Source: Malus domestica
Taxonomy: Eukaryota > Streptophyta > Magnoliopsida > Rosales > Rosaceae
Length of the DNA: 64,000 nucleotides
NCBI RefSeq assembly: GCF_042453785.1
Contig: NC_091664.1
Coordinates: forward strand, 29,188,501 to 29,252,500
Reading direction: 5' to 3'
Shown here: positions 30,323 to 59,695 of the stretch, piece after piece
Layout: each line of letters begins with the position of its first letter
Numbering within the stretch: position 1 is the stretch's first letter
The notes under the pieces: generated by a model
Told to the model about the DNA's origin: nothing
The model's input: only the letters and a program-made list of their open reading frames with translations
The model's database searches: none
Translations under genes and position numbers: made by a program

Positions 30323-33300
30323 ATGGGATCGGATTCCGAAACAGCGTCGCTAAAAATTCCTATCATTGATTTCACAAATAGTGGCAGTGACACCACGCCC
30401 GACCAAGTAAGACATGCACTTGAAGAGTACGGTTGTTTCGTGGCGGCGTATGACAGAGTTCCGGCTCAACTTGTTGACAAGGTGATGGCCCAGTCGAAGG
30501 ATCTGTTTGATTTGCCCACAGAAACCAAACTCAGCCACACTGGCGACGACGTACTCCGTGGATATATTGGACCAAGTCCTAGGCTTCCTTACTCCGAGAC
30601 CTTCGCGATTAGTCATGCTACAAGCTTCCAAGATGTGCAGAATTTCATGAACCTCGTGTGGCCTGCTGGCAAAGATAACTTCTGGTAATATTAATCAAAT
30701 TAATATATTATCGTTCGTGTTAATTTCTTATCACATATTTTACAGACATTCGAGTGGAACATGTATATATATATATATTTTTTTTTGGTTCGTTCGTGTA
30801 TATGTGACATAATATGGTTTTGAATTTGTTTGACTTCTATCTTCGGTTTAATTACTTTTTTTAATAATAAATGTGTGTAATATATGCATGTACATGTGCA
30901 GTGAAACTACTCACAGTTATGTGAAGTTGATAGAAGAGTTGGGTGAACGGGTGATGCGATTGTTGTTCGAAAGCTATGGTGTTGCAGCGAAGCACTATGA
31001 GTCCTTTGCTGCTTTCAATGACCACATTTTTCGATTAATCAAGTATAGAGAAATGAAAGACATCGACATCACTGGTACTAGTGTATGGTTTCCAAGCCAC
31101 ACCGACGCAAGCTTCATATCAATACTTTTCCAGCACCAAATTGGCGGTTTAGAAATCGAATCCAAGGATGGAACCTTTGTGGGTATTGACGCCTCACCTT
31201 GCCACTTCATAGTCTTCGCAGGAGATATGTTGCAGGTAAGCATGAGTTGATTGAAGAATAATGTTAGGGAGACCAAATTTGTAACTCAAATGATGTGTCA
31301 CAAATAAGAAATAAGCACGTTAATCAACATTTAAGCAATAATTCAATTATCAACATCCATATTATTTGGTTTACAAAACTTGGTTTAGAAATTTGATCTC
31401 CCTAACATTATAAGGGCCAAATTAGATATTTCTTTAAAGGGTGTGATATCCACACACTCTTTTTTATTTCTCACACACCTTTCTAATTTTCAACTGTCAG
31501 ATCAGATGGATTGAAGAAGATCAAATGACAGAAATTAAAAATGGTATATGGATAACACCCCAAATGAAAAAGACTAACGCTACGCTTACCACATTTGTCA
31601 TATCACATTTGTACAATCTCTCTAATAAAAGTACAGATAACACCCCGAATGAAAAAGACTAACGCTACACTTACCACATTTGTCATATCACATTTGTACA
31701 ATCTCTCTAATAAAAGTACGGCTCACCAACATATATGAGTTTCATCTCTATTAAAAAGATGATATTAAAGTGATATGGAAAAAGTAGTAAGAGTAATATT
31801 TTTGAATAAAAATGACCTATGTGGATGATATCATTATGACATCTGTTGATGCACAAAATCAGCGAAGACTTTGGTACAACAGAAAGTGTCAGGTTTTGTG
31901 ACCTTCGCTTGGTTGCTTCGGTCACTAGTGAGGATAAGTACGTAAATGAATAGAGACAGAGAAGCAAACACAGGATGTACGTGGTTCACCCAGATTGGCT
32001 ACGTCCACGGAGTAGAGGAGTTCTTATTAGTAGTGAAGGGCTTACACAAGTACAAAGGATCAAGCTCTCAATTTAGTGAGTTCTTGTGAATGATTTAACA
32101 CAAAATGGCATTAGGCAATATTGTGGGGGGATGACCCCTATTTATAGAAAAACTTGTAGCTTTGTCACATTGACATGTGTCATGTTATGATTGGTTCTTG
32201 ATGTTGACACGTGCTGCGCTCTGATTGGCTTCTAATCTTGACACGTGTTGAGTAGTGATTGGCCTCCTGGTCGGAGGGGAACTCTTCTGGGTCCTTGACA
32301 GTATAGCGTTGGCCGGTGCTCGGTAGTTTCGGGATTGGTCAAGTATGGTACAAACAGTGCTCCCCTAAGTTCCCGAGTGAGGGAAACTCCTCGGTTGGGG
32401 ACTTGCAAGATCCAATCCCTTGAGTAATCACGAAACTTCTAAGTACCGAAGTGTGGTCTGATCTTCATCTGCCCTTCTCTGGAAGTACCTTTCCTCCATC
32501 CGGGAATGGTGTATTTAGCTGATGTTGACGCACAAGGTAATGTATCAATTTCACTTGAAGCTTAGTTGTAGTTTCGGGCTTAGTCAAGTGTGATACAAAC
32601 CCTATAGTAGGAGTCCCCCAAGTCGCCGAGCTAGGAGATCTGCCGAAAGAGGTGACAGACAAGGTAAGCAGTCAAACTTCCAAGTAAGCAACCCAGGATC
32701 AGAGGTTTGACTTCGGCTTCCGGTTGATTGTTCTCCTTCTCCTTGTCTCTCATTCAACTGCCAGGATAAGGAGAAGCAAATGGATAAGAGATGATATGAG
32801 ATACTTTTGCTTTTGAAGAAGTAACTTTCCACAGGCTTATTCTTGAACTGTGCTGGAGGGTTTTCTGGTGCCCTTCAGAGTATAAGGCCGATTCAAAAAT
32901 TTGAGGGTCAAAACAAGTCCATCAAATCTAGAGTACGTTCGACCTTGATGATATGGGATACTTTTGCTGTTGACGGAATAATGAATGTGGTATGGAAAGG
33001 TGTCGTGCTGTAGTGATCTGTTTCAGCTCACCGTTGAACCTTCTGCTTCAATCTTTCGCATGGCAGAAGTGGTGTGCAACCTTTGCATTTAAATGGTCCT
33101 TCAGAACATTCCTTCATAGTGACTCAACCACGCTTGGCAGCTTCAGTGTAAAGAGCCAATATCTGATCAACTGTCATGAGGTATTTGCCGGTGGAATTCG
33201 TGACCTTGACAGCAGTTGAGGATGAGTACTCGAGAGCAATGCTAAGTAAGCAACCAGGCAAAGGCTCCAGGCAGTCAGTTCCAAATTGGAGGTTTGATTT

Positions 33301-36300
33301 CAGGTTCCGACTGACTGCTCTCTTTCTCCTTGTCCTGCAGGTGTGGACAAGGACAAAGACAAAGACAGGGAGAAAGCATGATATGGGATACTCTTGCTTT
33401 CGACCCTGATGATATGAGATACTCTTGTTCTTGGTGTGGCTTATTTGCTGAGGTATTATCGGGGGGAAATAAAGCTGAGTATTTCGAGAGGTTATGTTGA
33501 GGGTGCCTTTTCAAACGCGAGAAAGGGTTGAGCATTTTTGCAGGTTTGCCTGTCCGTTGAGGAGGGAGGTCAATGTATATAGGGATTTCCCAATAACAAG
33601 TAGTAATGCTATTCCTTTACCCTTCTTGGTCACAGCAATGTAGTGGGAGCTGCCAGCTTCACGTGTTTTAATTTTGTCAGAGCACTTTGAAAAAGTGGTA
33701 TGTGGTATCTGGAAAGCTGATATTACGTGTGGAGATTACAGACAAGCTTTATCTAAGGAAATCTGGCTCTCGAAGTTCTGAGAGTTGTGCCTCTTCGGTT
33801 TTCGAACAAGCAATCCCGTCGAGGATCTGACTCTCGAGATTCGGAAAGCGGTGCTACTCCGGTTTTTGAGAAAGTAATTATGTTGGGAGTTTTTTCTCGA
33901 ATGTGAGTAAAGGTTGGACGTTCTTGCCAACCTGTCTTGCCGCAAAACACGGAGGTCGACACACATAGGGACTTTCCAGTTGTCAAGCAGTGGTGCTGTT
34001 CCTTTACCCTTATGGGTAATAGTAGGGTAGCTGGAACTTCGAAATTCTCGTGCCTAAACTTTGTCAGAGATCTTTGACAAAGTTATATGTGGTACCCGAG
34101 GAGTTGATGGTGCATATGGAGAGCGGTGATTGATCAGTAAGATTCACGTGCTTTCTACTTCACCAGAAATCTTCGACAGATTGCCCGTAATTTCCGCAAA
34201 GCTGATTGTGCATGTGACAGGTGCTGACGAGGCTGCAAAAGCAGGTGCTTCTTCGATTTCTGAGATCGGCCCTCGTGGTCTCTGAGCAGCCCAGCTTTTG
34301 AGAAAGCAAACGCCTCTTCGATTTCTGAGATCGGCCCTCGTGGTCTCTGAGCAGCCCAGCTTTTGAGAAAGCAAACGCCTCTTCGATTTCTGAAGCTCCG
34401 TCGAGTGCAGATTTTTATAGAGGCTGGCATTAAGTTCCACAGCACACTTGAATCTCTACCAGTAGAAGCTCATTTCTTGCACTTCTAAGATCTTGATTTG
34501 TCTGACCTCTTCCTTCTTCAACACATTTGAAAATGTCTGGACCCTCCGACCGTCGTTTTGACTTGAACCTTGGAGAAGAGACAGCCACGCCTTCTCCAGA
34601 CAACATATGGCGCCCATCCTTCATATCCCCTACTGGTCCTCTTACCGTTGGGGATTCTGTGATGAAGAATGATATGACCGCTGCAGTGGTGGCCAGGAAC
34701 CTTCTCACTCCCAAAGATAACAGACTACTTTCCAAACGGTCTGATGAGTTGGCTGTTAAGGACTCTCTGGCTCTTAGTGTTCAGTGTGCAGGTTCTGTGT
34801 CTAATATGGCCCAACGCCTATTTGCTAGAACCCGCCAAGTTGAATCATTGGCTGCTGAAGTGATGAGTCTCAAACAGGAGATTAGAGGGCTCAAGCATGA
34901 GAATAAGCAGTTGCACCGGCTCGCCCATGACTATGCTACAAACATGAAGAGGAAGCTTGACCAGATGAAGGAATCTGATGGTAAGGTTTTACTTGATCAT
35001 CAGCGGTTTGTGGGTTTGTTCCAAAGGCATTTATTGCCTTCGTCCTCTGGGGCTGTACCTGGTAATGAAGCTTCAAATGATGAACCTCCAATGCCTCCTC
35101 CTTCTGGGGTTTTGTCAAGTACTGAGGCTCCGGATAACCACCCTCCGGTGCTTTCTCTTTCTGGGGCTCTACCGACTGCTGAGACTTCCCCTAAGCAACC
35201 TTTGTGAAGGCTCCCTTTTGTTTGTTTATTTTGACTCATGTATATGTACATATTTGTGGCTTATCGAAAATATTAATAAATAAGCTTTGCTTCATTTCAA
35301 CATATTGTGTTAAATACACCAAAGCCTTCTTCATAAAGTTCTTTGAATTTTTGCTTTTGTTGAAACCTGTATTATTGAAGCTTTGTGAGTGAAGCATGTA
35401 GTTTGAGGTAGTGTTCCCTTAATTTCCCGAGTGAGGAAAACTTCTCGGTTGGAAACTTGAAAAATCCAAGTCACTGAGTAGTCACGAACTTTTGAGTACC
35501 AAGGCGTAGTAGCATATGGTGGGAGTCCCCCAAGTCTCTAGTCGAGGGAGTTGACGAATGAGGTGTCTTGCGAATAGTCCATGGCGTAAGTACCAAAACT
35601 TCATTCTTTTGTTTTCTAAGTGGTAGCCCCGGACTTTTTCTTCATATATTTTGTTTATGAAGGTTGCTAGGCCCGAATAAGTGGAATTGCAGAAGGTGTA
35701 ACGGTTGGTAGCTGTTTTATGGAAAGCCATCTGACTACGATAGTCTTGCACATGATGACTATAGGGAGATACACACACATACTGCTATGATAGAGGGTGT
35801 AACCGTTGGTGCATTACAATCATAATGGAAGCATCACAATGATGGAAGCATCACAATGATGGAAGCATCACAATGATGAAAGCATCATAATGATGAAAAC
35901 ACCATAATGATGAAACATCATAATGATGTTTCTTTGGTGGAATTGGTTTTCATTTCCCCTAACAACCTGAATTGGTTTTCAATATAAGACCATCATCTGT
36001 AGCTCGAATCATAAAGTTGTCTTCATGAAAGTTGTTCTTTAATTCCTTAACTACAACATATCCAAATTTGAGAGCCATCAGATCAGTACAACTCTAGAAA
36101 TTCAGGTACGACGAGTGATTGTTCATCATTTGTCTGTCAACACGTCAGACCTGTTGTGAGCTTCAAAAATTCCATTTTCTCTTGCTTAGATCAACATACT
36201 TTCTTCATCGAAGTTGTTCCTTAACTTGTGAACTACAACATATCCAAAATTGAGATCCCTCGGAGCTGTATAACTCAAGAAATTCAGGTATGATGAATGA

Positions 36301-39300
36301 CTGGTTATTATTTTTCTGTCAACCCGTCAGATTTGTTGTGAGCTTCGAAACTCCATTTTCTATTGTTCAGATCAGCATGCTTTCTTCATTGAAGTTGTTC
36401 CTCAGCTCGTGAACTACAACATATCCAAATTTGAGATCCCTCGGAGCAGTATAACTCCAGAAATCCAGGTATGATGAATGACTGGTTATTATTTTTCTGT
36501 CAACCCGTCAGATTTGTTGTGAGCTTCGAAACTCCATTTTCTATTGTTCAGATCGGCATGCTTTCTTCATTGAAGTTGTTCCTCATCGTCTCTTTCATAA
36601 CATATCAAAAATTCAGAATGAACTAATGGTTAAATATTTCCAGATCTTCGAAACATCACAGCAGCTTCGAAATCTGCAAGAATCCGACTGTCATGTTTGG
36701 AGCTTCAACACTTTAATTTCCGTCGCTCAAACAGAAATGGTTCCTTCTTGAAAGTTGTTCATATGCTCAAGAACTATAGGGTGTCCAAAATTCAGCTCCA
36801 TTGGAGAAGAGCAGAGGTTGCAGAAATTTGATAGATGAAAGGAGGCGGAAGAGGGAGAGAGAGAAAAAGTCTCTTGGGTTGGATTTCTATTTTGGGGCAG
36901 ATTCCAATTTTTGTAGCACCTTCATTATTGATGAATTGCTTGTACTTTTGTCCATTATGAAACTTGGGACTTTGGCTTGTTGTTGGATCTATTATAATAT
37001 GTTTGGGAACATATATAAGTGAATAAATAAGAAGGAAAATTTTGGGCCCTTGTGGGTGTAAAACAAAAAATGTTTATGTTTACCCAAGTGTTTTTGTACA
37101 AGTTCAAGGGCATCTTGGGTTTTGTGAACAAAATTTGTTTATTTGGAGCAAGGTTTTGTGTTGAAGCTTTGTAGGTGAAGCTTTGGTGTTGAAGCTTTGT
37201 AGATGAAGCTTTCGAGGTGAAGCTTTGTAGATGAAGCTTTCTGGGTGAAGCTTTGATGGTGAAGCTTTGTAGATGAAGCTTTCGAGGTGAAGCTGTGATG
37301 GTGAAGCTTTGGAGATGAAAGTATGTAGAGGGAGCTTTATAGGTGAAGATTTTTTAGGTGAAGCTTTGTAGGTGAAGCTTTTTTAAGTGAAGCTTTTCGG
37401 GTGAAGTTTTTTTTGGGTGAAGCTTTTCGGGTGAAGCTTTTTGGATGAAGCTGTTTTTTTTTTTTTTTTTTTTGGCGCTTGACACGGTCTTCATTTGCTT
37501 GTTTTGTAGTGACTGTGGAAGACGGATTGCTTTCTGATTGAGAAGGGTTCCGGCATCGCTTGCTATGAATGTAAAAGAGTGAGGGCTGAGTTGGCTAAAT
37601 TACCTCTTTATTGAATTCATTGCCAAATGGCCTTCATTACATAGGATGCCGAACGGCTATAGCTCAACACTTGTACATCGTGAGTCTATTTGTAGTAGTA
37701 CTTCAAGTGATCAGCGTTCCATGGATGGCCAAGGGTCTTGCCATCGGAGCTTCTAAGTGTGTAAGAGCCAGGGCGACTGATGCCAATGACTTCATACGGT
37801 CCATCCCAGTTTGGACTAAGTGTGCCTTCACTCGGGACTCTGTCGCAGAGTAATCTTTTCTTTAAGACCCAGTCTCCTATTTTGAAAGAACGAGGCTTGA
37901 CCCTAGAGTCATAATAGTTGGAGATGCGCTGCTTGTAGGCGACATTCCTCAAGTGAGCTTGGTTTCTGTGTTCCTCGACTAAATCCAAGTTGAGGGTGAG
38001 TTGTTTGTCATTTTCACTTTGAATGTAGTTCTGGACTCGGAATGTTGCTTGCTCGAGCTCAACAGGGACAACCGCCTCTGTGCCAAAGGCAAGTGAGAAT
38101 GGAGTTTCTCCTGTTGAAGTCCGATATGAAGTGCGATATGACCAAAGAGCTTGGGGTACAAATTCTGGCCAACAGCCTTTAGCTTTGTCCAAGCTGGTTT
38201 TCAAAGTGCGCTTGATTATTTTGTTGATGGCCTCAACTTGTCCATTAGACTGGGGATGAGCTGGAGAGGCAAAGCATAAGTTGATGTTGAACTTAGAGCA
38301 GAACAACCTAAACTTCTTGTTGTCAAACTGTCGCCCATTGTCAGTGACTATCGCATTGGGAATGCCGAATCTACAAAGGATGTTCTTCCACACGAAGTCT
38401 TCTATCTTTGCCTCAGTAATGGTTGCCAAGGGTTCTACTTCGGCCCACTTTGTGAAGTAGTCCACTGCAACGACTGCGTAACAGACTTTGCCCTTCCCTG
38501 CCGGCATTGGGCCGATCAAATCAAGTCCCCACTGGGCGAAGGGCCAAGGGCTGATCATAGGAGTAAGAGGCTCTGGAGGGGAATGAGGAATAGTCGCATA
38601 TCGTTGACATTTGTCACATGAGCGGGATACTTTGATGGCATCCTGGTGGAGTGTTGGCCAGTAATATCCTTGGCGAAAAGTCTTGTGTGCTAGGGACCGA
38701 GATCCAGCATGATCTCCACAGACTCCCTCATGTATTTCCCGAAGGACGATTTCCGCCTCGGCAGGCGTAAGACACCTTAAGTATGGCAGGCTAAAACCTC
38801 GCTTATAGAGTTGATCATTGATGATCAGGTAGCGGGTAGACTTGTATCGAATTTGCTTAGCCTGGACTTTATCATTTGGGAGGGTGCCATGAGCAAGGAA
38901 ATTATAGATCGGGGTGATCCAACTATCCCCCTGTTGTAAGTTGCATACTTCTGCGGCCATGGTGCTTGGTGTTGCCAACAGTTCGACATGAATTTTTCTT
39001 CCAATCTTGTCTTCCACAGCTGAGGCGAGGCGAGCCAGGGCGTCTGCATGACTGTTTGCCGCTCGAGGAACTTGGGTGATCTGGTAGTGGAAGTGCTTGA
39101 GCAAAAGTTGTGTTTGCGCAAGATATGCTGCCATGGAGCTGTCCTTAGCATCAAAGTTGTTGGTAACCTGGTTGACCACTAATTGGGAGTCACTGAAAAT
39201 ATCAATTTGTTTAACCCCGAGGTGTTTGGCCAAACGTAATCCTGCTGGAAGGGCTTCATACTCGGCCTCATTGTTTGATGCCTTGAATTTGAAACGAAGA

Positions 39301-42300
39301 GCATACTCCATTGCTACTTTGTCGGGCGTAGTCAAGACTAGTCCCGCTCCACAGCCCTGTTGGTTGGATGAGCCATCAACATACAAACTCCATGCTGAGG
39401 TCGTTGATTCTACCTTCTGAGCTTCCGATGGTAATGAAGCTACTGCTTCAGGTGTAGAAGCAATGTCAACAGGATATGTGAAGTCGGCGATGAAATCTGC
39501 TACTGCTTGGCCTTTTTCGGCTGGTTTTGGTTGGTAGGAGATGTCAAACTCACCCAATGCTATCGCCCATTTGATCATTCGTCCAGACGTGTCAGGACTC
39601 TGGAGTATCTGTCGAAAAGGGTGATTGGTAAGCACGATGATGGCGTGTGCTTGGAAATAAGGGCGAAGTTTCCGAGCAGACATGACCAATGCTAGAGCTA
39701 ATTTCTCAATGTTGGAGTATCGTGTCTCCGCATCTTGTAGGGCCTTGCTAGCGTAGTAGACGGGCCGTTCGACACCACTGTCCATTCGAATAAGAACAGA
39801 ACTGACTGCTGAAGCCGAAACCGATAGATAGATGATGAGAGTGTCACCAACTTCTGGTTTGGAGAGCAGAGGGGCTTTACTCATGTACTCTTTGAGGTTC
39901 CTGAATGCCTTGGCACATTCCTCCGTCCATGTAATGTACTTCTTATTTCCCTTGAGTGCTTTGAAGAAAGGAGCACATCTGTCTGTGGCCTTAGAGATGA
40001 ATCTGGTTAAGGCTGCCACCTTGCCAGTAAGGCTTTGGATGTCTTTTGAAGTTATTGGCTCTTTCATGTCGAGGATTGCTTTGATCTTTTCAGGGTTAGC
40101 TTCAATGCCTCGTTGGCTAATCATGAAGCCTAAGAATTTGCCAGAGCCCACGCCGAAGGCACATTTGTTGGGGTTCAACCTCATTCGATACCTCTTTAGA
40201 ATGGTGAAAGTTTCAGATAGGTCGGTGATGTGTTGGTCAGCATGTTTGCTTTTGACTAGCATATCATCAACGTAAACTTCCATGTTCTTCCCAATTTGTT
40301 CGACGAACATTGAATTGACCAGTCTCTGATAAGTTGCTCCTGCATTCTTTAGGCCGAAAGGCATGACTTTATAGCAATATAGTCCCCTGTCAGTAGTGAA
40401 GGCCGTGTGTTCTTGGTCTGAGGGGTTCATGAGGATTTGGTTGTATCCTGAATAAGCGTCCATAAAGCTCAAAAGCTCACACCCTACCGTAGAGTCTATA
40501 AGCCTGTCAATAAGAGGAAGAGGGAAACTATCTTTCGGACACCCTTTGTTTAGGTCGGTGTAGTCAACACACATCCTCCACAAGACATTTTGAAGCGAAA
40601 GACTTTCTTTGGTCGGATTTTTCCTAACAAGGACCACATTTGCTACCCATGTCGGGTAATTGACTTCGCGGACAAAGCCTATGCCTTTGAGTTTTTCAAC
40701 TTCTGCTTTCATTGCCTCGTATCGTTCAGCGTCATAAGATCTTCGCTTCTGTCTCACCGGCTTGATCTTGGGGTCAATACTCAAACGATGACAGATGACA
40801 TCGGGAGAGATGCCTGGCATGTCCTCGTATGACCAGGCGAAGACTTCAGTGTTCTCTTTCAAAAAAGATATCAATGCTAACCGAAGGGGTGGTGACAATG
40901 TGGTGCCAATATTCACCATGCGGTCTGGATGATCTCTTGAGATAGGTACCTTCTCCAACTCTTCAGCAGGTTGGGCTTGCTGGGTGAAAGAGTCATCTCG
41001 AGGATCATCGGGTTGATTGTTGCTATCAAGAAGATCCAAGGTCGCTTCATCTAGGCTGGTCTTTGTGACTTGGTCATGTACAGACAGGGTTTCCTTGGGT
41101 CCGGGCAAGTGTTGTTGCTTAACTGAAGTGTTGTAACATGATCGTGCACTAAGCTGATCTCCTCTGATGTAGCCGTTGCCATGGGGGGTTGGAAATTTCA
41201 TCAACAGCATATGCGTGGATACCATAGCCTTGAGATCATTGATGCCTGTGCGCCCAAAGATGACATTGTATGCCGTTGGGCAGTCAACCACTAGGAAGTT
41301 AGTGGTAATGGTAGCCGTGTAAGGGCCTGTACCAATAGTAAAGGGTAAATGTATGCTCCCTAAAGGTTGCACGATATCACCGGAGAAGCTTATCAGAGGA
41401 GAAATCGAGCGATCGAGCAAGTGTTCAGCTACACTGAGTGCCCTGAAAGCTTCGGCAAACATGATATTGACCGAAGCCCCTGTGTCTACGAGGATTCGTC
41501 GAACATCAAAGTTGGCTATGTGAGCCTCCACGATCAATGGGTCGTTATGAGGGTAGATGATGCCTCTTTCTTCCTCAGGGTAGAAACATATCGGATCCCA
41601 GTTAGGTTTTTGATACTTCCCTCCCCTGATGTCTTCCACGTGAAACACTTGGTGACCAGGCCTCAGACTTCGTTCACTGTTTTTCATGGCCCTATTGGAA
41701 GATTCAGATATGGGTGTGCCGCCGCTTATGGAATATATGACATTCACCTGGCGTTGGTTACGGTTATCCCTTTGAGGGTGAAGAAGGAATTGATCAATTT
41801 TTCCTTCTCGTGCCAAAGCTTCAATACGATCACGGAGGATGATACATTTCTCGCTATCATGGCCGTTATGCTCATGGTAGCAACAAAACGTGCCCGCGTT
41901 ATTCGGGGGCGTGTAATCTGGGTGCCTCGGCTTTGGCTTTGGTATCAGGTGAGCTATGTTGGGGTAAATGGCCGCGCATGTGGCATTCAAGGGCGTGTAT
42001 GTCTCATACCTTGGGGTAGGGGGTATCTTGACGCGGGTTTGACCCACTGCATTGACTGCCTGGGGGCGAGCGTTATTGTGGCGATACCCTTGGTTATCGG
42101 GATAGTGTCCCTTACTCTTTTTACTGAAAGGAGAGTGGTGAGGATGGAAATCCTTCCTCTTGCCTTGAAATTGATATGTCTGTTGATTCGGTGAAGCATT
42201 ATGCAAGGCATGGAGAGGTGCCACTGCTGTTTGGAAAGTCGAGGTCTTCTCATTTAGGTGAGTCTGGCTTCCACCTCCCACTTATTGATAAAGGATGGTT

Positions 42301-45140
42301 GTAGGGGGTTTCTCCTGATATGTCTCTGCCTCGGCGGAGGCATGGTTATAAGCCTGCGCCATCACCTCAGAGTAAGTCTTCCAAGTATTGGCATTGATCA
42401 TGTATTTAAAGAAACAATCACGTAGGCCTGCCGTGAAGGCTTTGAGGGCAGTCTTGTCGTCTGCCTCGGCACACCGGGAGTATTCATGGCTGAAGCGGCC
42501 AGCATACATACGTAATGACTCGTCTGGCTTCTGGCGGATAGTGTACAAGTCATCTGCAGAGTGCAAGCGATCGGTTTGGAAAATGTGTTGGGAAACAAAT
42601 AGTTTCCTCAATTCCTCAAATGAGTCTACCGTCTCAGGTGTAAGACGACAATACCAATTTAGAGCTCCACCAGAGAGGGTGGAGGGGAAGAGAAGACATC
42701 GCTCTTCGTCGGTGTGCATCCGGTATGCCATGGTGGACTCAAAGAGGTTAAGGTGCTCAATCGGGTCCTCTTTTCCAGTATAAAGTTGCAAGCCAAGCTT
42801 TTGCTTTGTCTTTGCTTGAAGGGGGGTGTTGAGGATCCTCCTTGTAAGAGGGCCAGGCCTGGGTTGGTTCCAGTCAGGTATTTCAGCCTGACGTTCAGCC
42901 TTCAACTTGTTTACTTCCTCAAGAAGTTGTAGGACAAGGGGGTCCTGAGCGGAGTTACGTGCCACTGGAGCTTTCTTTCGTAAATCTCCATCTCCTCTTG
43001 GAATTAGGAAGGTTTGATCAAGGGCATGTGATTTTTCCCTGGACTCGCTGTACTGGCTTCCAGGGTATGTCTGTCGGAACACCTCTGAGTCCCCTGTACC
43101 CTCATGTCTCTCTAGGACTTGTTGCCCATTCCCCAAGTTGGTGGCCGGCTCGGGCCGTGGCAGGGGACCGAGTCTCTCAGAAATCATTGGGTCATTGATC
43201 TTTGAGCTTATATGGATGGAATTCTCTCGACGTTGCTTCAGGAAATCCCGACAATCGCGAAAGACGGCTTTCGATCCTTCTGCCCCTTCAGCAAAGAGGT
43301 GTCTCCCTCCGCTTCTCATGGTTCGGGTCGAAGCAACTGGGTTGAGAGAAGCCTCATGTTGATTATCAAATCGAGGGGTAATTTGTTCCCTATCAGGGAT
43401 ATCTATGTCGAATGCATGTGACCCTCCATGTTGGAGGGCACCCAATTGATGGTTGACTTCCACGGGGGCAACAAGCTCGCGTGTCTGAGCTTGCCTAGCT
43501 TCGTGGAGTGTCTCGAAGAGCTTCTCATATTGCTCCTGGAGGACCTCATTCCTCATTGCTATCTTGTTGTTCTGAGCTTCCAACTCATCGACTTTAGCTT
43601 GAAGAAGAACTCGTTTTCCTTCCTTCTTTCGTTGTTTCGCACTATGTGCAAGGGGGGTGTCATTCTGTGTGCTGTGGCTTCCTTCGCTTCCCATGTTGGA
43701 GAGGGATGCCTGATCAAAAGAAAGTGTACGAATGATAGAAACCAGCTTGACACAGCTGAAGAGAGTAGGAATAAGTATCGTTTCCCACAGACGGCGCCAA
43801 ATGTTGATGCACAAAATCAGCGAAGACTTTGGTACAACAGAAAGTGTCAGGTTTTGTGACCTTCGCTTGGTTGCTTCGGTCACTAGTGAGGATAAGTACG
43901 TAAATGAATAGAGACAGAGAAGCAAACACAGGATGTACGTGGTTCACCCAGATTGGCTACGTCCACGGAGTAGAGGAGTTCTTATTAGTAGTGAAGGGCT
44001 TACACAAGTACAAAGGATCAAGCTCTCAATTTAGTGAGTTCTTGTGAATGATTTAACACAAAATGGCATTAGGCAATATTGTGGGGGGATGACCCCTATT
44101 TATAGAAAAACTTGTAGCTTTGTCACATTGACATGTGTCATGTTATGATTGGTTCTTGATGTTGACACGTGCTGCGCTCTGATTGGCTTCTAATCTTGAC
44201 ACGTGTTGAGTAGTGATTGGCCTCCTGGTCGGAGGGGAACTCTTCTGGGTCCTTGACAGTATAGCGTTGGCCGGTGCTCGGTAGTTTCGGGATTGGTCAA
44301 GTATGGTACAAACAACATCTATGTAAGAGCTTAGCTCACGAGAACATCCTCTTGAAAAAAGAAAAGAATTTATATGGAAAAGGATCACCACCACATTGCA
44401 TCCATGTCCAATAATATTGTCATATGCAAGTTTTTCTTCACTTGACAATGTATGATTGGGTCGGAACTTCACATGGCGGTGAATCCATTCCATGTATGTT
44501 GCCCTCTTAAAATTGAGTACCAACTAGATCGGTGTGATTGCAAAATATAATTAAAAAAATAAAAAAGACTATTTACAGATTAATTAAAAGGACTGATGGT
44601 GAACAATTGGTAACTTTAAAGTTGCTTAAAGTTGTTTTGTAGACTTTTTTTTTGGACATATGATATTAGTTATATGAAGGAGATGAAAGAAGTAGACTAA
44701 ATCTCATAATAAACTAATAATAATATGATTTAAATTCGCATGTTGTAAACTTTTAATAGACAGAGCAAACTCATATATATACGCTCCTAAACCATGCCCC
44801 GCCTTCACACTTCAACATCCTAAATCATGAGTATGAAAACTTATAGCGTATATTATTCATTAATTAATTACAAATGATTGATTAATTTGTTAATAATCAG
44901 ATTTGGAGTAATAACAGAATAAAAGCTTGCAACCATCGCGTCAGGATTTGGGACGTGAATGTGGAAAGGTGCTCGGTGGGAATTTTCATATTCAACAGGG
45001 GAAAGATACAAGTACCAGAAGAAGTAACTGATGAGAAGAACCCATTGTGCTATAAACCATGCGATGGTCTTGGCTATATTGCTTTTGCTTTCTCCAACCT
45101 GGATTTGACCGGTCGTGTCAAGGCCTACTGTGGTATCTAA
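30323..45140 (+). CDS. AOP1: AOP-type 2-oxoglutarate/Fe(II) dioxygenase, copy A, 311 aa, with retroelement in intron 2
   Basis: Exons 30323-30684, 30902-31235 and 44901-45140 (362+334+240 = 936 bp, 311 aa, TAA/TGA-free until the final stop). Exon 1 starts MGSDSETASLKIPIIDFTNS. It includes the DIOX_N-like region with HALEEYGCFVAAYD. Exon 2 carries the iron motif H-x-D in FPSHTDASFISILFQ. Exon 3 supplies the distal histidine in CNHRV and the 2-oxoglutarate-binding R-x-S as RCS (VERCSVGIFIF), ending VKAYCGI. These are the family's H-D-H and RxS residues. AOP-type enzymes belong to the plant DOXC class; known members act in glucosinolate side-chain chemistry in Brassicaceae, so the substrate here is unknown. 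Intron 2 is 13665 bp because of the antisense retrotransposon; in copy B it is 1191 bp. Protein differs from copy B at only three residues, all in exon 1. Confidence 0.9.
31546..31720 (+). repeat. About 87-bp tandem duplication in AOP intron 2
   Basis: Two adjacent units with gaaaaagactaacgctac, cttaccacatttgtcatatc and aatctctctaataaaagtac. Present in both AOP copies (second set near 57105-57270). Confidence 0.75.
31839..31843 (+). other. Target-site duplication, left
   Basis: acatc directly before the left LTR; repeated at 44315-44319. Copy B has one acatc at the matching place (tatgacatctatgtaagagc near 57382-57401). Confidence 0.93.
32137..32148 (-). promoter_or_regulatory. TATA box of the 3' LTR
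   Basis: Minus strand reads CTATAAATAGGG. The same motif lies in the 5' LTR at about 44095-44106, where it would start element transcription. Confidence 0.6.
32170..32262 (-). promoter_or_regulatory. Three CCAAT plus G-box/ABRE modules in LTR U3
   Basis: Plus strand shows ttgacatgtg, ttgacacgtg and ttgacacgtg, each followed by gattgg, at about 34-bp spacing (32170, 32204, 32238). On the element strand these read CCAATC then CACGTGTCAA. CACGTGTC is an ABRE-type G-box core; the first module is mutated to CACATGTCAA. Also at 44128-44220. Confidence 0.65.
32357..32370 (-). other. Polypurine tract next to 3' LTR
   Basis: Minus strand reads acttaggggagcac just before the LTR start TGTTTG. A short purine-rich primer site for plus-strand DNA synthesis. 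Confidence 0.6.
34254..34390 (+). repeat. 65-bp tandem repeat, 2 copies plus a partial third
   Basis: Unit begins cgatttctgagatcggccct and contains gcagcccagcttttgagaaa; starts at 34254 and 34319, third partial start near 34384. Lies just upstream of the antisense ORF. Confidence 0.85.
34412..34420 (+). promoter_or_regulatory. TATA-like box ahead of antisense ORF
   Basis: tttttatag about 113 bp before the ATG at 34533. The distance suits a short leader. No experimental support. Confidence 0.35.
34533..35207 (+). CDS. Antisense ORF of Tat-lineage element, 224-aa coiled-coil protein of unknown function
   Basis: Starts at ATG 34533 (MSGPSDRRFDLNLGEE), stop at 35205-35207; the frame runs two codons further up without ATG. 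It lies between pol and the 3' LTR in the opposite orientation to gag-pol. Residues about 85-150 form a coiled coil (LAAEVMSLKQEIRGLKHENK), then a basic segment (MKRKLDQ). The C-terminal third has about three Pro/Ser-rich units (GAVPGNEAS, GVLSSTEAP, GALPTAETS). The N-terminal FDLNL resembles EAR-type repression motifs. An AATAAA signal follows at 35275-35280 and a TATA-like box precedes it. Antisense ORFs at this position are known in Retand/Tat elements. It is intact, which suggests selection or recent insertion. Function unknown. Confidence 0.8.
   Translation: MSGPSDRRFDLNLGEETATPSPDNIWRPSFISPTGPLTVGDSVMKNDMTAAVVARNLLTPKDNRLLSKRSDELAVKDSLALSVQCAGSVSNMAQRLFARTRQVESLAAEVMSLKQEIRGLKHENKQLHRLAHDYATNMKRKLDQMKESDGKVLLDHQRFVGLFQRHLLPSSSGAVPGNEASNDEPPMPPPSGVLSSTEAPDNHPPVLSLSGALPTAETSPKQPL
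35275..35280 (+). terminator. AATAAA polyadenylation signal of antisense ORF
   Basis: aataaa 68 bp after the stop codon on the same strand, followed by further AT-rich sequence. Confidence 0.45.
35828..35930 (+). repeat. 17-bp tandem array, about 6 copies
   Basis: Unit gaagcatcacaatgatg, drifting to aaagcatcataatgatg. Direct tandem units without spacers. Confidence 0.85.
36021..36600 (+). repeat. About 181-bp tandem array, 3.2 copies
   Basis: The anchor cttcat recurs at 36021, 36203, 36384 and 36565. Units share gaagttgttcct, actacaacatatccaaattt, gatccctcggag and tgtcaacccgtcagatttgt. Unit length is close to that of plant satellites. Confidence 0.88.
37150..37474 (+). repeat. 16-18-bp GTGAAGCTTTGTAGAT array with poly-T end
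   Basis: About 18-20 degenerate units such as ggtgaagctttgtagatgaa, many with a HindIII-like aagctt. Ends in about 20 T at 37453-37474. Directly downstream of pol on the element strand. Confidence 0.85.
37686..42281 (-). CDS. Retrotransposon NC-pol polyprotein (zinc knuckle, PR, RT, RH, aRH, INT), intact
   Basis: Open for 1531 codons in the same frame as gag; the frame has no ATG at its start (begins GTG directly after the gag TAA). Order: a zinc-knuckle-like motif near residue 130 (CCYHEHNGHDSEKC); aspartic protease with VDTGASVNI near 265; reverse transcriptase with VDYTDLNKGCPKDSFPLP and the catalytic YVDD; RNase H with a connection region; a second, archaeal-type RNase H (WSLYVDGSSNQQGCGAGLVL); and integrase with an HHCC region (GVCGDHAGS, CDKCQRY) and DDE residues in GLDLIGP, TDNGRQF and QVEAIN. 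No other stop or frameshift. Expression would need suppression of the upstream stop, an intron, or internal initiation. Confidence 0.93.
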   Translation of the reverse strand: MGGGSQTHLNEKTSTFQTAVAPLHALHNASPNQQTYQFQGKRKDFHPHHSPFSKKSKGHYPDNQGYRHNNARPQAVNAVGQTRVKIPPTPRYETYTPLNATCAAIYPNIAHLIPKPKPRHPDYTPPNNAGTFCCYHEHNGHDSEKCIILRDRIEALAREGKIDQFLLHPQRDNRNQRQVNVIYSISGGTPISESSNRAMKNSERSLRPGHQVFHVEDIRGGKYQKPNWDPICFYPEEERGIIYPHNDPLIVEAHIANFDVRRILVDTGASVNIMFAEAFRALSVAEHLLDRSISPLISFSGDIVQPLGSIHLPFTIGTGPYTATITTNFLVVDCPTAYNVIFGRTGINDLKAMVSTHMLLMKFPTPHGNGYIRGDQLSARSCYNTSVKQQHLPGPKETLSVHDQVTKTSLDEATLDLLDSNNQPDDPRDDSFTQQAQPAEELEKVPISRDHPDRMVNIGTTLSPPLRLALISFLKENTEVFAWSYEDMPGISPDVICHRLSIDPKIKPVRQKRRSYDAERYEAMKAEVEKLKGIGFVREVNYPTWVANVVLVRKNPTKESLSLQNVLWRMCVDYTDLNKGCPKDSFPLPLIDRLIDSTVGCELLSFMDAYSGYNQILMNPSDQEHTAFTTDRGLYCYKVMPFGLKNAGATYQRLVNSMFVEQIGKNMEVYVDDMLVKSKHADQHITDLSETFTILKRYRMRLNPNKCAFGVGSGKFLGFMISQRGIEANPEKIKAILDMKEPITSKDIQSLTGKVAALTRFISKATDRCAPFFKALKGNKKYITWTEECAKAFRNLKEYMSKAPLLSKPEVGDTLIIYLSVSASAVSSVLIRMDSGVERPVYYASKALQDAETRYSNIEKLALALVMSARKLRPYFQAHAIIVLTNHPFRQILQSPDTSGRMIKWAIALGEFDISYQPKPAEKGQAVADFIADFTYPVDIASTPEAVASLPSEAQKVESTTSAWSLYVDGSSNQQGCGAGLVLTTPDKVAMEYALRFKFKASNNEAEYEALPAGLRLAKHLGVKQIDIFSDSQLVVNQVTNNFDAKDSSMAAYLAQTQLLLKHFHYQITQVPRAANSHADALARLASAVEDKIGRKIHVELLATPSTMAAEVCNLQQGDSWITPIYNFLAHGTLPNDKVQAKQIRYKSTRYLIINDQLYKRGFSLPYLRCLTPAEAEIVLREIHEGVCGDHAGSRSLAHKTFRQGYYWPTLHQDAIKVSRSCDKCQRYATIPHSPPEPLTPMISPWPFAQWGLDLIGPMPAGKGKVCYAVVAVDYFTKWAEVEPLATITEAKIEDFVWKNILCRFGIPNAIVTDNGRQFDNKKFRLFCSKFNINLCFASPAHPQSNGQVEAINKIIKRTLKTSLDKAKGCWPEFVPQALWSYRTSYRTSTGETPFSLAFGTEAVVPVELEQATFRVQNYIQSENDKQLTLNLDLVEEHRNQAHLRNVAYKQRISNYYDSRVKPRSFKIGDWVLKKRLLCDRVPSEGTLSPNWDGPYEVIGISRPGSYTLRSSDGKTLGHPWNADHLKYYYK
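42282..43694 (-). CDS. Retrotransposon gag (capsid part), 470 aa, ends in TAA before the zinc knuckle
   Basis: The ATG at 43694 (MGSEGSHSTQNDTPLAHS) is about 108 nt after the LTR. Residues about 25-75 form a coiled coil (KVDELEAQNNKIAMRNEVL). The capsid-like Retrotrans_gag region is about 300-450 (LYTGKEDPIEHLNLFE, FPSTLSGGALNWY, FEELRKLFVSQH, FTAGLRDCFFKYMINA). The frame stops at TAA 42284-42282 and continues in the same frame into pol. The single stop separates capsid from nucleocapsid. Confidence 0.9.
   Translation of the reverse strand: MGSEGSHSTQNDTPLAHSAKQRKKEGKRVLLQAKVDELEAQNNKIAMRNEVLQEQYEKLFETLHEARQAQTRELVAPVEVNHQLGALQHGGSHAFDIDIPDREQITPRFDNQHEASLNPVASTRTMRSGGRHLFAEGAEGSKAVFRDCRDFLKQRRENSIHISSKINDPMISERLGPLPRPEPATNLGNGQQVLERHEGTGDSEVFRQTYPGSQYSESREKSHALDQTFLIPRGDGDLRKKAPVARNSAQDPLVLQLLEEVNKLKAERQAEIPDWNQPRPGPLTRRILNTPLQAKTKQKLGLQLYTGKEDPIEHLNLFESTMAYRMHTDEERCLLFPSTLSGGALNWYCRLTPETVDSFEELRKLFVSQHIFQTDRLHSADDLYTIRQKPDESLRMYAGRFSHEYSRCAEADDKTALKAFTAGLRDCFFKYMINANTWKTYSEVMAQAYNHASAEAETYQEKPPTTILYQ
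43782..43799 (-). other. Primer-binding site
   Basis: Minus strand tggcgccgtctgtggg, two bases after the 5' LTR. The first nine bases match the 3' end complement of plant tRNA-Asp; the rest do not, so the primer is uncertain. Confidence 0.7.
43802..44314 (-). repeat. 5' LTR of the Tat-lineage element
   Basis: 513 bp; no difference found by eye from the 3' LTR. Followed by acatc at 44315-44319. Carries the same TATA box and U3 modules. Confidence 0.93.
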
Positions 45141-50900: not shown

Positions 50901-52198
50901 CAAAATCACTCGCGCCCAAAAAATGAACGCGCTGCAACATTAAAGATTGCTGCAAAGTGCAGCCCCACCCACGGTGGGTATGTCAATGACATGTTGGCAA
51001 TGGAAAGTGAGCCCAATGGCTCTTTTGGTTGATCAACGGAGGAAATTCAATGGGTCCAACGGTCCATGTTTAATTTAGGAAATATTTTTGTTTTATATTT
51101 ATAAATGTAGTGAACTCAATGACTAAGATTGAACATGATCAAATCTAACGGTGAAAAAACAAATCTAATGGCCAAATTTTAAAACTAACGGCTAAATAAT
51201 TTTAAAATATTATTTAACTCAAAATTCACCGAAAAACTCTATAAATACCTATATATTTGTTCAAACATTCACACAAAATTCATTTTTCTCTTACATTTCT
51301 TCCAATTTTTCTTTCTACCATCTTCCAAAACCATGTGTTTATTCATGTGTTTTGTATTTATACATTTCTATCATGTATTTCTTATTCTTCCATAGTGTTT
51401 CATGACTTTTATGTGTCGATTTAGTGATTTTTCAATGTTTATCGGAATTTAAATATTTTTAGGTTAAAATGTTCATAAAATTAATTTATGATAGCCCAGA
51501 AGGGTTGAAGCAGAAAAGTTGTTTCTAGGTTAAAAACTAAATGTTGGAGATGGTATAAAGGACGGGGATGCACGCTAAGCATATAATAATATGGGTCAGC
51601 CAAAAGATCAACAAATGCCTCACCGAAAAACTAGAATTTTTTTTTTTAGCGATGTATTGTCTACCGTTAGGGTGCAACGAGGCCAGAGTCTTGAATTTGC
51701 CATTACTTAGTTGTTTCCCCAGTGAACAAACTTTCTAGCTTTGCTTCTGCTCTCCTCCCCCTTCTTGTTTCGTTGAAGCTCCTCTACATGTCTGTTTACT
51801 GTGGGAAAAATAATAATAAATTTAAGATTATGTTGGTCAGTGGCGGGATATTAGTTAAAGTTAGTAACAACAACTTGCTAATCAGATTCATGGAAAGAGA
51901 GCCAAATGAGGTATTTCTTTTCATCTTTTTGTGAATTGGGTTATGTGTTGTGTGGTTATGGGAAGCAAAGAAACACTGCACTCATTGTAATAACACTGCA
52001 TAGTGATGCTTAACGTATAAGTGGATTGTGGAGGGTATAGATTCTATAGAATGATTTACTCCAAAAACAATGAATTATCACAGGTATATCAAATTTTCTA
52101 ACTCTACATATTAAGGAGCTTATATTTGTTAAAAACAATGTCATACACAGTGTTGGCACAGAAAATGTATTCATAATTCTAAAGCACTAAACAGAGAA

Positions 52199-53222
52199 CT
52201 ACTTACACGCAGGAAGGAGGGACGTGTCGGCAGAAACAGCACAAGCAATCCCCAAGTTATGAAGAGCACCCTTTATGACTCCACATGAGAAATGGAGATG
52301 CATGTTTGGTTCTTCTGCTGCCTTGTTTTCAGCCGCCTCGGCATTTTCTTTAGACAAGTCTCCATTTTCGGAAGGATCGAGCGACATGCGTGAAACCCAA
52401 CGAAACCGATTATCTTGCAATACAAAAGTACCCTACAACACAAACAAAACCCATCTTAGTCTTATCAAATTCACACATTGACAAAGAACCCCAATTCAGT
52501 ATTAGTCGATTGACTCGACTCCAAACAAATTACCCTATGATTGGTCTTTAAGTTGTCAATCTGCTTCTTGAAGAGCTCGGACCAAAAGTCCTTGCAGATG
52601 AACTTAATTGCATCCAGATGATCAGTAAACCGAGGCCGCTCCATCGTGTACCTAACAAGTGAAATTGATCCATAATCACACTCCTATTCCTACAATTTAC
52701 AATGAGCATTATTTTGTTAACTTTAAATTATAAGTAGACCTAGAATAGCATAGGATTCAATGCCACACACATATGCTTTACTTTCCCACATTTTCTCAGC
52801 AACCAAACACTCTAACAAATCATTACAAACGAAAAAAAGAGAAAAAATTTCGAAATCAAACACTTCGAATTACTATCCCACATTTTCTCAGCAACCAAAC
52901 ACTCTACCAAATCATTACAAACGGAAAAAAGAGAACAAATTTCGAAAATAGGCATTTCAGATCTAGAAACCCAAAACCTGTGAGATCAAACAAATCCAAT
53001 TCAATTACAATGAAATAAAGGGAAGAACTAGGGAGGGCAGGGTGGTTAGGAATAGTGTGGGGAGGTGTACCGCTCGGAGAGCTGGTGGCCGACCTGGTAG
53101 CCAATAGCGTCGATCCTACTGGCGGCGAGCTCGGGCTTGTTGGCGTATAACCGATTGCAGTACATAGAGACCATCTCTGTCAGTAGACTATCCACGCAGC
53201 TCTCTGAGACCTCTCTCCCCAT
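52199..53222 (-). CDS. TRS33: TRAPPC6 copy B, last exon lost at duplication edge
   Basis: Exons on the minus strand: 53222-53071 (152 bp), 52651-52534 (118) and 52432-52207 (226), same splice sites as copy A. The block copied here began inside intron 3, so the counterpart of the 24142-24120 exon is absent. If intron 3 is not spliced, translation ends two codons past exon 3 (LPACK, then TAG at 52199), giving about 167 aa that lack only the final short strand. Exon 3 differs by H to L (TSLLPAC versus TSHLPAC). Whether this makes working protein is open; a partial duplicate or pseudogene is equally possible. Copy A should be the functional parent. Confidence 0.65.
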
Positions 53223-54760
53223 CCCTCTCTCTCCAGCTCTCGCGCTCCCTGTGTATTTTCTCTGTAAATTGATTTTTTTTTTCATCAAATAAAAAAAAAA
53301 CAAAGAAAATAGATTTTGAGAGTGGATTATTGGGCTTATAGAATATGGGCTTCTTGTGGGTATGGAATAATTGGCCCATTGGGTGAACATACAACATTAG
53401 ATCATCTCATAAGATAAAACTTAAAATATAAGCGCTAAACCCCCTTCCCAAATCATCTCCAACTATTGGACTAAAATAAGCTTTGAAGATAAAATATATC
53501 TTTGGGTTAGATTCCCTCAGAAATTAAGTCTACCTTAAATTATTCTGGACCCACCAAATTGTAATATTTCAAACTTTTCTTTTGTTTTTACTTATAATCC
53601 AACGGATGTGATCAAATCAGATCAAATTTAACAGTAAAAAAAATTTGACAGCCCTAAATCAAATCTAATATCTAAAATATTTTTTTTAAAATAAAAATTC
53701 ACTTTATTTACCGAAATTTAAATATTTTATATTAAAATGTTCATAAAGATAAATTAGGATAATCTACATAAATTTTATTTTAAAAAAATAAGGATAAAAT
53801 CATCATTTAATAATCTCGGGCTAAAATTTGAAGTCATAACTATTGGAGAAGAAAAGCAGTTTATGGGTAATGACTTAAATTTTTAAGCTTTATTCCCAAG
53901 TGTATAAATGTTCTAATGGTGAAGAAAAAAAAATTATAAACACTCAATTTTTTTAGCACCCTGTTAATTTATGTTATTTGATTGTGTAGAAAAAAACGAA
54001 AAGACGGATGTTAAAATAAGTTTGATACAAATAGTTTCCAGGAAAAATTAAACTATTTTTCACAAGTTGGATATATAAGATTTGAAGGCCAACTTTTCTT
54101 GGATCTACCAGATCACTTAATTTTGACCGTCTATAATAGATCGTGTGGCCAAAATAAATTCTCTCTCTTCAACTCGTCTTCCCTTTTAATTATAGGCTCA
54201 TATTTCACATTACATGTTATAGGTTCGATTATTGCTGCTCGTGAATTGTATGATGGTAGCCAGAACAAGGCTAAAATGCAGTTGTAAATCTTCTTAGCTC
54301 TTGAAAGGATAAATTATCCTGGCAAACCCCTTTTATAAAAAATAAAAAAGAGAAGATAAATTGTTTATGATTACGGTCCTTGTAACGTGCATGAAGTCCT
54401 ACATTCCTGCTCCAAACTTCTTATTTTAATGCTCGGGAGAAAGCAACAAGCCAACAGCTAATTGTAGGTTTTGGATGATACTAGCGAGTGACAAATTTTT
54501 TTTTTTTTTTTTTTGGCATTTTGATTGAGAGCAATCAAACTAGCAAATTCTCCTAAAGAGAGAAATCAAACCAAATTTTAAGACAATTTTTGAAAATTAT
54601 TAAATAAAAACAAAACAAAAGAATAAAATCATGTCGCCGCTCCACAGCCTTTGGATATCCGGAAGCCATATCACATGATTCACGCATGTAATAGAAATTA
54701 TCGTGTGGTGAATCATGATGAGCATAAAATTAATTATTCAATAATTTCATATACCTAATA

Positions 54761-55332
54761 CCGTCTCCAACCGAAGGGTCAGGAGGGTCAAAGAACCGAC
54801 AATAGTTCGAAAACCGTCTTCAACCAAGAGCTAGGCCAAAGGGCTTGTGGGCCCCATCAAAGGGCCAACTGGCTGGCCCAAAGCAACCAGCCAGCCAGCC
54901 CCGGGCTGGGCCAGAATTTTCATTATTCCTGTCGGTTATATCTGACAAGAATGGTAGGCCAAAATTTCAAATACAACGGCTAGTTACCGTTGGATTCAAT
55001 TTTTTTTTTGGGTCAATTTTTTTTTTATGAATTTAATTTGTAGTTTTTACATATAAGTTGTCATTTTTAAATATAAGTTGTAGTTTTAAAATTTAAGTTG
55101 TTGTTTTTAAATTTTAAGTTGTTGTAGTTTTTAAATCTAAATAATAAATTATGTTTGGCCCTCAGTTGGAGACAGTTTTTTGTGACAGAGCTAAAATGAG
55201 CCATATATCCCTTTGGCCTTCGGTTGGAGATGAAGACAAATATAGCCATATACTGTTCATTAAAATATTAATATATTGGAGAACTAGAGGGTTAAAACGA
55301 ACTTTCTGACCAGCCTTCGGTTGGAGATGGCC
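54761..55332. mobile_element. MITE with CTCCAACCGAAGG ends, copy B
   Basis: Left ccgtctccaaccgaagggtc; right ccttcggttggagatgg, a close inverted match. More sequence is kept here than in copy A, e.g. the duplicated ggctggcccaaagcaaccag. Confidence 0.55.
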
Positions 55333-55738
55333 ATAAATTGTCATGGCGAACCCCTTTTATAAAAAACAAAAAAAAAAACGAAGATAGATTGTTTATGATT
55401 ACGGTCCTTGTAACGTGCATGAAGTCCTAATTGTAGGTTTTGGATGATACTAGCAAGTGACTTTATTTATTATTATTTTTTTTGGCATTTTGATTGGAAG
55501 TAATCACACTAGCGAACTCTCCTAAAGAGAGAAATCAAACCAAATTCTAAGACAAATTTTCCAAATTATTAAATAGAAACAAAATAAAAAAATAAAATCA
55601 TATCGCCGTTCCCCATCATTTGAACATCCGAAAGCCATATCACATGATTCACACATGTAATAGAAAATATCGTGTGTCGTGAATCATGATGAGCATAAAA
55701 CTAATTATTTAATAATTTCATATACCTAATACCGCTGC

Positions 55739-55866
55739 CCAGCTACTATATATCTATATCCATATATATCTCAACTCCATGCATCCTCATTCGACTCACT
55801 TAAACAGTTAAACTCACTCACATTCGCACACACCACGTTAGTGACGATCAGTCGAGGAACTCAAGT
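55739..55866 (+). promoter_or_regulatory. AOP copy B proximal promoter and leader
   Basis: 128 bp identical to 30195-30322, including the TATA-like ctatatatctatatccatat. Confidence 0.55.
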
Positions 55867-58213: not shown

Positions 58214-59659
58214 TACTAATGCCACCATGAATTGATCTTTATATATGTATTTTCTCCCATGATTAGTAAATAAAAGTTGTGCATGCCATGAGTTATGTGA
58301 TATAATTGATATTTTACGCCCCACCTTGAACGGACGGGTAACAAATCACCTTGTGTAATTAAGATATTTTGAATTCAAAAAATGAGGCTAATTAATTTGT
58401 GTACGATATTTCTTTGTTGAATGATACTTTTGTCTACGCTATAATTGTTCCTTGGTCTTAATTTGGATAATAATAAAGGAAATGTACGGTCCTAATTATA
58501 ATATTTGTATAATAAAGAAACATTTATCACAATTGAATGGACATAAGTTTTGTACTTCTTTAATTATCTTGTAAATTAAGGGCTAACTTCCGTAAAATGA
58601 TAGAGGGTTGGGGAGAAAATAGATCTTAAGGGTAAAGTTTAAAACGTAAGCCAACATTTTTTAAATTTTCTATCCATTTAAACATAAATGGATTGTTCAT
58701 TATTAACTACACGTGGTTTATGCCATTTAGTATTACAAGCTAATAGTACTCCTTTCTACTTGTAAGTGAGAGATCTTATATTTGATTTTCACTAAAAGCA
58801 AATTCCCCTTTTATGTAGATAATATCATTTGTTAAAAAAAAATACACTCGATCGGTTTGAAGTCAATACTTATCAAAAGAAACACAACCGTAAATGCATT
58901 TATTAAAAACAGTAAAAGAGAAATATCACTTCTTAAAAAAAAAAAATGATGAATAGTTTTATTTAATTTGTTTTCGTTGAGAAGTAATAATTAATCAAAA
59001 CATGATTTGAGAGACACAACACAAAGTTAGAGTGTTCTAATAAATTAACATTTAGTTGCACTACAAGTAATGTAAGCAAAGGTTAGTATTTCTTTGTCAC
59101 CAATTAAAGAATAGTTTGCATTGCTTACTTTTTTAGTCACCACAATATCAAAGTAGTGTGGTTTACTCCTTGGGCCACCAGTATCAGTGACAATTGCAGC
59201 GCAATTCTTTAACTATTATACATTATTTTTTGCTAAATAAAACAAATAGCAACTCTAGTGATAATATTATCTATATTAACTAGGGCTGGAAAAAAAATCC
59301 CAAAAATCCCAAACCAAACCAAAAAAATCCCGATCCCAAACCGAAATTTTCGGTATGGGATTCGTTATTGCATCTCCATTTTTCGGTATTCCCATACCAA
59401 ACCGAAAAAAAAAAATATATATATATATATTATTTTTTAATTATAAGAGAATTATTTCAACCGTTGATTATTTTGGATTTAATCTGTGCCGTTGATTTGT
59501 TTTTAGGTCATATCCAAATGGTACTCTTTCTTTCCTTTCATTTGTTTCCTCCATCCATCGAAGTGATCTGAGTCTAACTGTCTACCACCACCGGCCCTCA
59601 TCTCTCATCTAGAAGTGATCTGACTGTCTACCACCACCGGCCTACCACCACACAGCCAC

Positions 59660-59667
<8 letters not shown>

Positions 59668-59692: not shown

Positions 59693-59695
<3 letters not shown>

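Follow-up and report, generated by a model that had tools for sequence, protein, structure and literature searches.

A short antisense gene conserved among copies of a Retand-type retrotransposon in the apple genome

Retand elements have been described as generally carrying antisense open reading frames (ORFs) between pol and the 3' long terminal repeat (LTR; PMC11963269), and antisense proteins with a TRP28 domain (Transposase_28, PF04195) have been reported for 97% of recent Retand clusters (PMC11963269) and TRP28 for 23% of Retand elements (PMC6317226). For gene23 of Grande, a promoter of its own that lies upstream of the frame and drives transcription has been reported, as has a nuclear location of the product (PMC7264820, citing Gomez-Orte 2013). 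The function of the Retand antisense ORFs is described as unknown (PMC11963269, PMC7264820), and such genes have been likened to the antisense genes of human T-cell leukaemia virus (HTLV; PMC11963269). We report that a stretch of 64,000 nucleotides from Malus domestica (NC_091664.1, positions 29,188,501 to 29,252,500, hereafter the window, to which all positions refer) carries a Retand-type (Tat) element of 12.47 kb on the minus strand (31844-44314), and that this element holds a single-exon antisense gene, which runs opposite to gag and pol inside the expected sense transcript (Table 1). A preliminary description of the window had taken such a self-contained antisense unit to be poorly understood, a claim of novelty that is not supported, given that antisense ORFs are described as a general trait of Retand and that Grande gene23 is reported to have its own promoter (PMC11963269, PMC7264820). 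Antisense genes of this kind, with a separate promoter and a product located in the nucleus, are already known from Grande; less known are the lack of TRP28, the leucine zipper and a conserved FDLN motif, and the zipper, the motif and the relation to TRP28-type proteins were missed in that description.

Grande gene23 (maize), Retand ORF4 (Silene) and the RIRE2 antisense ORF (rice) are likewise antisense accessory ORFs in a long 3' region, and we set them beside the apple gene by description, not by sequence; expression has been reported for Grande and, weakly, for Retand, whereas the apple gene is known from its sequence alone. With 224 amino acids it falls below the 250-codon limit of a survey of such extra ORFs (eORFs; PMC6317226). 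On the evidence below we consider it fairly probable that it is an antisense accessory gene (aORF-3R, eORF-3'R) with its own internal TATA promoter, coding for a protein that is maintained by selection and would act as a dimeric nuclear accessory factor.

Genome searches covered the 651-Mb assembly in 19 contigs, with the window on contig 4. Among 10,207 first-look candidates 150 copies were scored; these match at 99-100%, and three of them carry one TAG. Such near-identity of young copies shows recent amplification and says nothing on selection. A 20-base stretch of the window's gene that includes an AGA codon occurs 564 times in the genome (control 0), a degenerate pattern that encodes these residues with CGN in place of AGA 5,189 times (control 2) and an FDLN-type pattern 6,854 times (control 52), where all these counts include matches whether the gene is intact or not. 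Two sets of copies were fetched: a first diverged set (L031-L060), being 30 of the 279 places that match a pattern requiring a synonymous change, and a second set of 20 loci found via another stretch of the gene and taken from the first listed places on chromosome 1, which was partly picked for rare codon variants and is hence non-random.

The ratio of non-synonymous to synonymous change (dN/dS) was computed over a core of 163 codons, a length shared by all 22 compared cores. Between the young copy L002 and the ten copies of the first diverged set with an intact frame it is 0.15-0.36, and between L002 and ten open copies of the second set 0.09-0.43 (0.16 for L088), so that the comparison across copies proposed in the preliminary description gives 0.09-0.43 for L002 against 20 diverged open copies. 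The 28 pairs among eight representatives gave 0.08-0.50, apart from one close pair at 1.00. Simulations of neutral change (three comparisons, 1000 runs each) never came down to the observed number of amino-acid changes, which was 24 against a simulated minimum of 32, 14 against 17 and 16 against 20, and they introduced a stop in 605-806 of 1000 runs. Third codon positions differ most in five of seven comparisons and equal first positions in the other two. In 11 cores, each of the other five frames is interrupted by 2 to 20 stops per core, so that an overlapping frame does not account for this pattern. Between subfamilies, the open copies have diverged much more at synonymous than at non-synonymous sites, a pattern not expected from decay alone; as judged from these sequence comparisons, purifying selection preserves the antisense protein across subfamilies.

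The signals around the frame are conserved as well. The sequence GATTTTTATAGAGG stands at 34410-34423 with its core TATA at 34416-34419, inside the TATA-like box that had been placed at 34412-34420, and the intact frame of 224 codons plus stop and the AATAAA downstream of it are also where the preliminary description had put them. An ATG frame of at least 224 amino acids arose in one of 500 dinucleotide shuffles of the region. When upstream regions were aligned for L001, L002 and L031-L060 (32 copies), TATA(A/G/T)(A/G)GG was kept in all 32, at 100-122 nt before the ATG and at 117 nt in 17 of them. Across 15 representatives, the ten bases with the TATA have a mean column identity of 0.95, compared with 0.75 and 0.76 in the adjoining tens, 0.89 in another block roughly 150 nt upstream of the ATG and 0.77-0.85 in the leader; in the second set the TATA pattern is found in 18 of 20 copies. 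The 65-bp repeat directly upstream varies in number among 30 young copies, with one core in nine, two in 19 and three in two. Of 12 open copies (10 diverged and two young), 11 have AATAAA no more than 250 nt after the stop, the exception being L042, which appears to enter other sequence there; because the DNA here is AT-rich, AATAAA alone is weak evidence. As TATA block, frame and downstream AATAAA recur in diverged subfamilies, the earlier suggestion that the antisense unit of this Tat-lineage element is self-contained is borne out at the level of sequence signals. Upstream of the antisense promoter there is also a direct repeat of 245 bp (33492-33735 and 33878-34122, 68% identity).

The predicted protein has a readable layout. 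A single-sequence AlphaFold2 model (mean predicted local distance difference test score, pLDDT, 69, with 74 residues at 90 or more) gives helices at residues 44-56 and 60-167 and ends of low confidence, and together with the heptads the long helix supports the coiled coil noted before, which includes a leucine zipper. The zipper comprises four heptads within residues 102-137, with a heptad score matched by seven of 10,000 shuffles of the segment, and its four leucines are invariant in all 20 copies of the second set. Matches to solved structures were weak coiled-coil matches, the best at E 0.39. A basic region of the bZIP family consists of N-x7-R/K, followed by x9 to the first zipper leucine. 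Membership in this family was considered and failed: N91-x7-R99 is present, but ten residues after R99 stands E109, few basic residues precede the zipper, and no bZIP Pfam match was obtained in the protein. The basic segment of the preliminary description is likewise weak, with KRK at 139-141 in its favour and six D/E beside nine K/R in residues 106-148. Its Pro/Ser repeats exist as a rich C-terminal tail, which differs in sequence and length between copies.

The second set was selected independently of the FDLN motif, and 17 of its copies are in frame close to the N terminus (L082, L085 and L100 are out of frame and were omitted). All 17 carry FDLN there; the next residue is L in eight, F in seven and I in two. 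Among these 17 copies 70 of the 163 columns are invariant and FDLN is the only run of at least four outside the search stretch, with a post hoc chance value of 0.03 for four invariant columns. The conservation of FDLN in the earlier 30 loci was discarded as circular, because this very motif had served to find those loci. The plant EAR repression motif was first given as (L/F)DLN(L/F)(x)P and later as LxLxL or DLNxxP, and by itself it is insufficient for binding of TOPLESS/TPR (PMC7446885). FDLNL fits (L/F)DLN(L/F), but is without the proline and is not LxLxL, so that it does not qualify as an EAR motif; its resemblance to part of that motif is a lead. Among the matches listed in mostly open-access literature, no title or beginning of an abstract links an antisense gene of a retrotransposon with either a zipper or an EAR-like motif.

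With regard to the standard Retand antisense proteins, hmmscan of the 224-residue protein gave no match to PF04195 up to E 0.1. A search of the same genome for PF04195, in which 150 of 420 candidates were scored, yielded 24 matching places, of which 20 were fetched; these 24 compare with thousands of pattern matches for the gene without TRP28, although the search methods were not alike. One of these places, L078 (G000:C15), belongs to a TRP28-type Retand-like element with a multi-exon antisense gene, and pol lies downstream of it on the opposite strand (L081, 45% identity over 306 residues), as in the Retand arrangement. The open exon that follows TRP28 in L078 reads WRP.F...T.GD...A..VARGL..P.D and resembles residues 20-86 of the 224-residue protein, with a phmmer E of 1e-4; a profile of the family scores it at E 4e-5 (19.9 bits), compared with 6.9 bits for the best ten-fold shuffled control. 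The best place for this exon in the window is the antisense gene itself (32% over 72 residues, E 8e-4), while the TRP28 exon of L078 left no convincing trace in the element (best E 0.04). The sequence shared with the TRP28-type protein is thus that downstream of TRP28, with the similarity being remote and seen at one locus. By eye, a coiled-coil-like exon follows the WRP/T-GD exon in L078, so that the likeness to the TRP28-bearing aORF-3R/eORF-3'R consists of a WRP/T-GD region and then a coiled coil; the differences are the missing PF04195 and one exon instead of several. These similarities suggest that the gene is probably a shortened, intronless, TRP28-less relative of the standard Retand antisense gene, without implying a direction of change, and they lend support, if weak, to common descent with the TRP28 protein. 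An EAR motif as an ancestral shared feature was considered and dropped: YDLNYSP, which fits DLNxxP, is peculiar to L078, and its place is taken by DSNYS in L066, L067, L070, L072, L073 and L077 and by NSNYF in L068.

The antisense gene HBZ of HTLV-1 encodes an N-terminal motif part and a leucine zipper. The apple gene has the same two features and lies, like HBZ, near the 3' end of a retroelement; unlike HBZ, its presumed promoter is internal and not in the LTR, its product has no canonical basic region, and it belongs to a plant element; homology between the two is not expected. According to the reading that we favour, the gene would be transcribed from its internal TATA promoter against gag-pol and translated into the 224-residue protein, the zipper would mediate dimerisation, and the flexible ends may bear short binding motifs, with FDLN at the N end. 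The resulting dimeric nuclear factor could then adjust how the element is expressed or handled in the nucleus, in the way that HBZ acts for HTLV-1. Besides the conserved TATA block, the conserved protein and the zipper, we base the proposal of a dimeric nuclear regulator on the reported nuclear product and separate promoter of Grande gene23 and on the comparison with HTLV. A bolder version, to which we give little credence, would make the protein a plant counterpart of HBZ, where the zipper dimer brings TOPLESS via FDLN to the LTR of the element or to host promoters and thereby times expression, while the many copies supply the factor in trans. Should the protein be a regulator, the genome of a crop would contain very many copies of a transcription factor encoded by a transposon, and if the TOPLESS version were true, a retrotransposon would control the timing of its expression with the repression machinery of its host plant. 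A family of short, one-exon genes without TRP28, under purifying selection, preceded by a conserved TATA block and coding for a protein whose layout can be read (FDLN motif, zipper and flexible tail), makes the function of Retand antisense ORFs testable.

Other explanations fit parts of these data. Separate transcription from an antisense promoter uncouples the protein from gag-pol, which by inference would be odd for a component of the particle, and no capsid-like or integrase-like Pfam match was obtained in it; these points make it rather unlikely that the protein is a part of the particle or of the pre-integration complex, which might for instance help to bring the DNA copy into the nucleus or to chromatin, and not a regulator of transcription, even though a coiled-coil adaptor with flexible ends would fit such a part and nuclear import of the pre-integration complex has been raised (PMC7264820). 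We assign a somewhat smaller chance to a role of the antisense RNA and not of the protein, where pairing with the full-length sense RNA would give double-stranded RNA and small RNAs that restrain the element. The unit lies wholly within the expected sense transcript, a role of this type has been proposed for antisense units (PMC7264820), and there is some conservation at the DNA level around the SVSNM codons; selection nevertheless acts on amino acids, with dN/dS well below 1 and third codon positions being the most variable in five of seven comparisons. Roles of RNA and protein could coexist.

It is very improbable that the frame arose by chance or is a relic and was spread by a recent burst, in view of the single shuffle in 500 that reached its length, the low dN/dS between subfamilies and the conserved TATA block, although young copies would be near-identical whatever the function and many older copies have lost the frame: 20 of the 30 loci of the first diverged set fail to keep it intact, and in 10 of the 20 in the second set a stop or a frameshift interrupts the core. 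The preliminary description had named stops and frameshifts in related copies as an argument against the unit; they are real in many older copies, as in any transposon, whereas the open copies across subfamilies are under constraint. Recent capture of a host gene fragment is barely credible, since the patterns match thousands of places, with diverged subfamilies among those that were read, and a similar region occupies the same antisense position in the TRP28-type element; transduction as such is known for plant LTR elements (PMC7264820).

Some observations weigh against an antisense accessory gene that has a promoter of its own and acts in the nucleus. Two close pairs have a high dN/dS, namely L042-L056 with 1.00 (three synonymous and ten non-synonymous changes) and L042-L045 with 0.50, which we read as decay after insertion. 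The exact TATA pattern is absent in two of the 20 copies of the second set, where L082 has TATAATGG and L085 has none. The relation to TRP28-type proteins, apart from being remote, depends on L078 as the one fairly intact locus, the other TRP28 loci being relics with a next profile score of 9.8 bits. Finally, the 224-residue protein has no Pfam or NCBIfam match above the cut-off, and no classical nuclear signal was seen in it by eye.

With respect to the host element, pol has the domain order RT_RNaseH_2 (785-883), RT_RNaseH (813-912), PF13456 (969-1085) and Integrase_H2C2 (1175-1228). Ogre and Retand have an additional RNase H (aRH) that stands between the RNase H and integrase domains (PMC6317226), as is the case here, and the region between pol and the 3' LTR, which is 2,933-6,566 bp in Retand elements with an antisense ORF (PMC11963269), spans 5,329 bp and holds the antisense frame. 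Domain order, the 5.3-kb region and the antisense frame together fit the Retand lineage (Tat) of Ty3/gypsy. The gag and pol genes share one frame, divided by a single in-frame stop at 42282-42284 directly before pol. The element is flanked by a 5-bp target duplication, ACATC (31839-31843 and 44315-44319), and lies in a segmental duplication (24688-48971 versus 51990-64000, in pieces of approximately 84-98% identity), where the other copy of the surrounding segment has an element-free paralogous site near 57361-57391. Given the identical LTRs, the target duplications and the empty site, the insertion is recent and probably later than the segmental duplication.

Table 1. Features of the Retand-type element and its antisense gene (positions in the window)
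Feature	Position	Strand	Remarks
3' LTR, 513 bp	31844..32356	-	100% identical to the 5' LTR over 513 bp
65-bp tandem repeat	34250..34393	+	directly upstream of the antisense TATA
TATA block of the putative antisense promoter	34412..34423	+	TATA at 34416
Presumed transcription start (~34445) and 5' leader	34440..34532	+	start placed from TATA spacing only
Antisense gene, 224 aa and stop, single exon	34533..35207	+	from translation
FDLNL (residues 9-13)	34557..34571	+	
WRP/T-GD region (residues 26-85)	34608..34787	+	similar to the part following TRP28 in L078
Leucine zipper	34839..34913	+	a: V103 V110 I117 N124; d: L106 L113 L120 L127
Pro/Ser-rich C-terminal tail	35034..35204	+	low model confidence; sequence and length variable between copies
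AATAAA	35275..35280	+	
pol frame, stop to stop	37686..42281	-	RT, RNase H, second RNase H-like domain (PF13456), integrase
gag (Retrotrans_gag, PF03732)	42282..43694 from first Met	-	stop-to-stop frame 42282-43943
5' LTR, 513 bp	43802..44314	-	

The 91 bases beside the 3' LTR on its polypurine side (32357-32447) are repeated with 81% identity at 35411-35500, just past the antisense poly(A) signal. These direct repeats bracket the antisense cassette and are possibly a trace of its gain, or else a second polypurine tract. Outside the element, positions 527-20632 hold three related blocks (approximately 66-76% identity, spaced by approximately 7-9 kb) with long frames on the minus strand, which perhaps represent a diverged tandem gene cluster.
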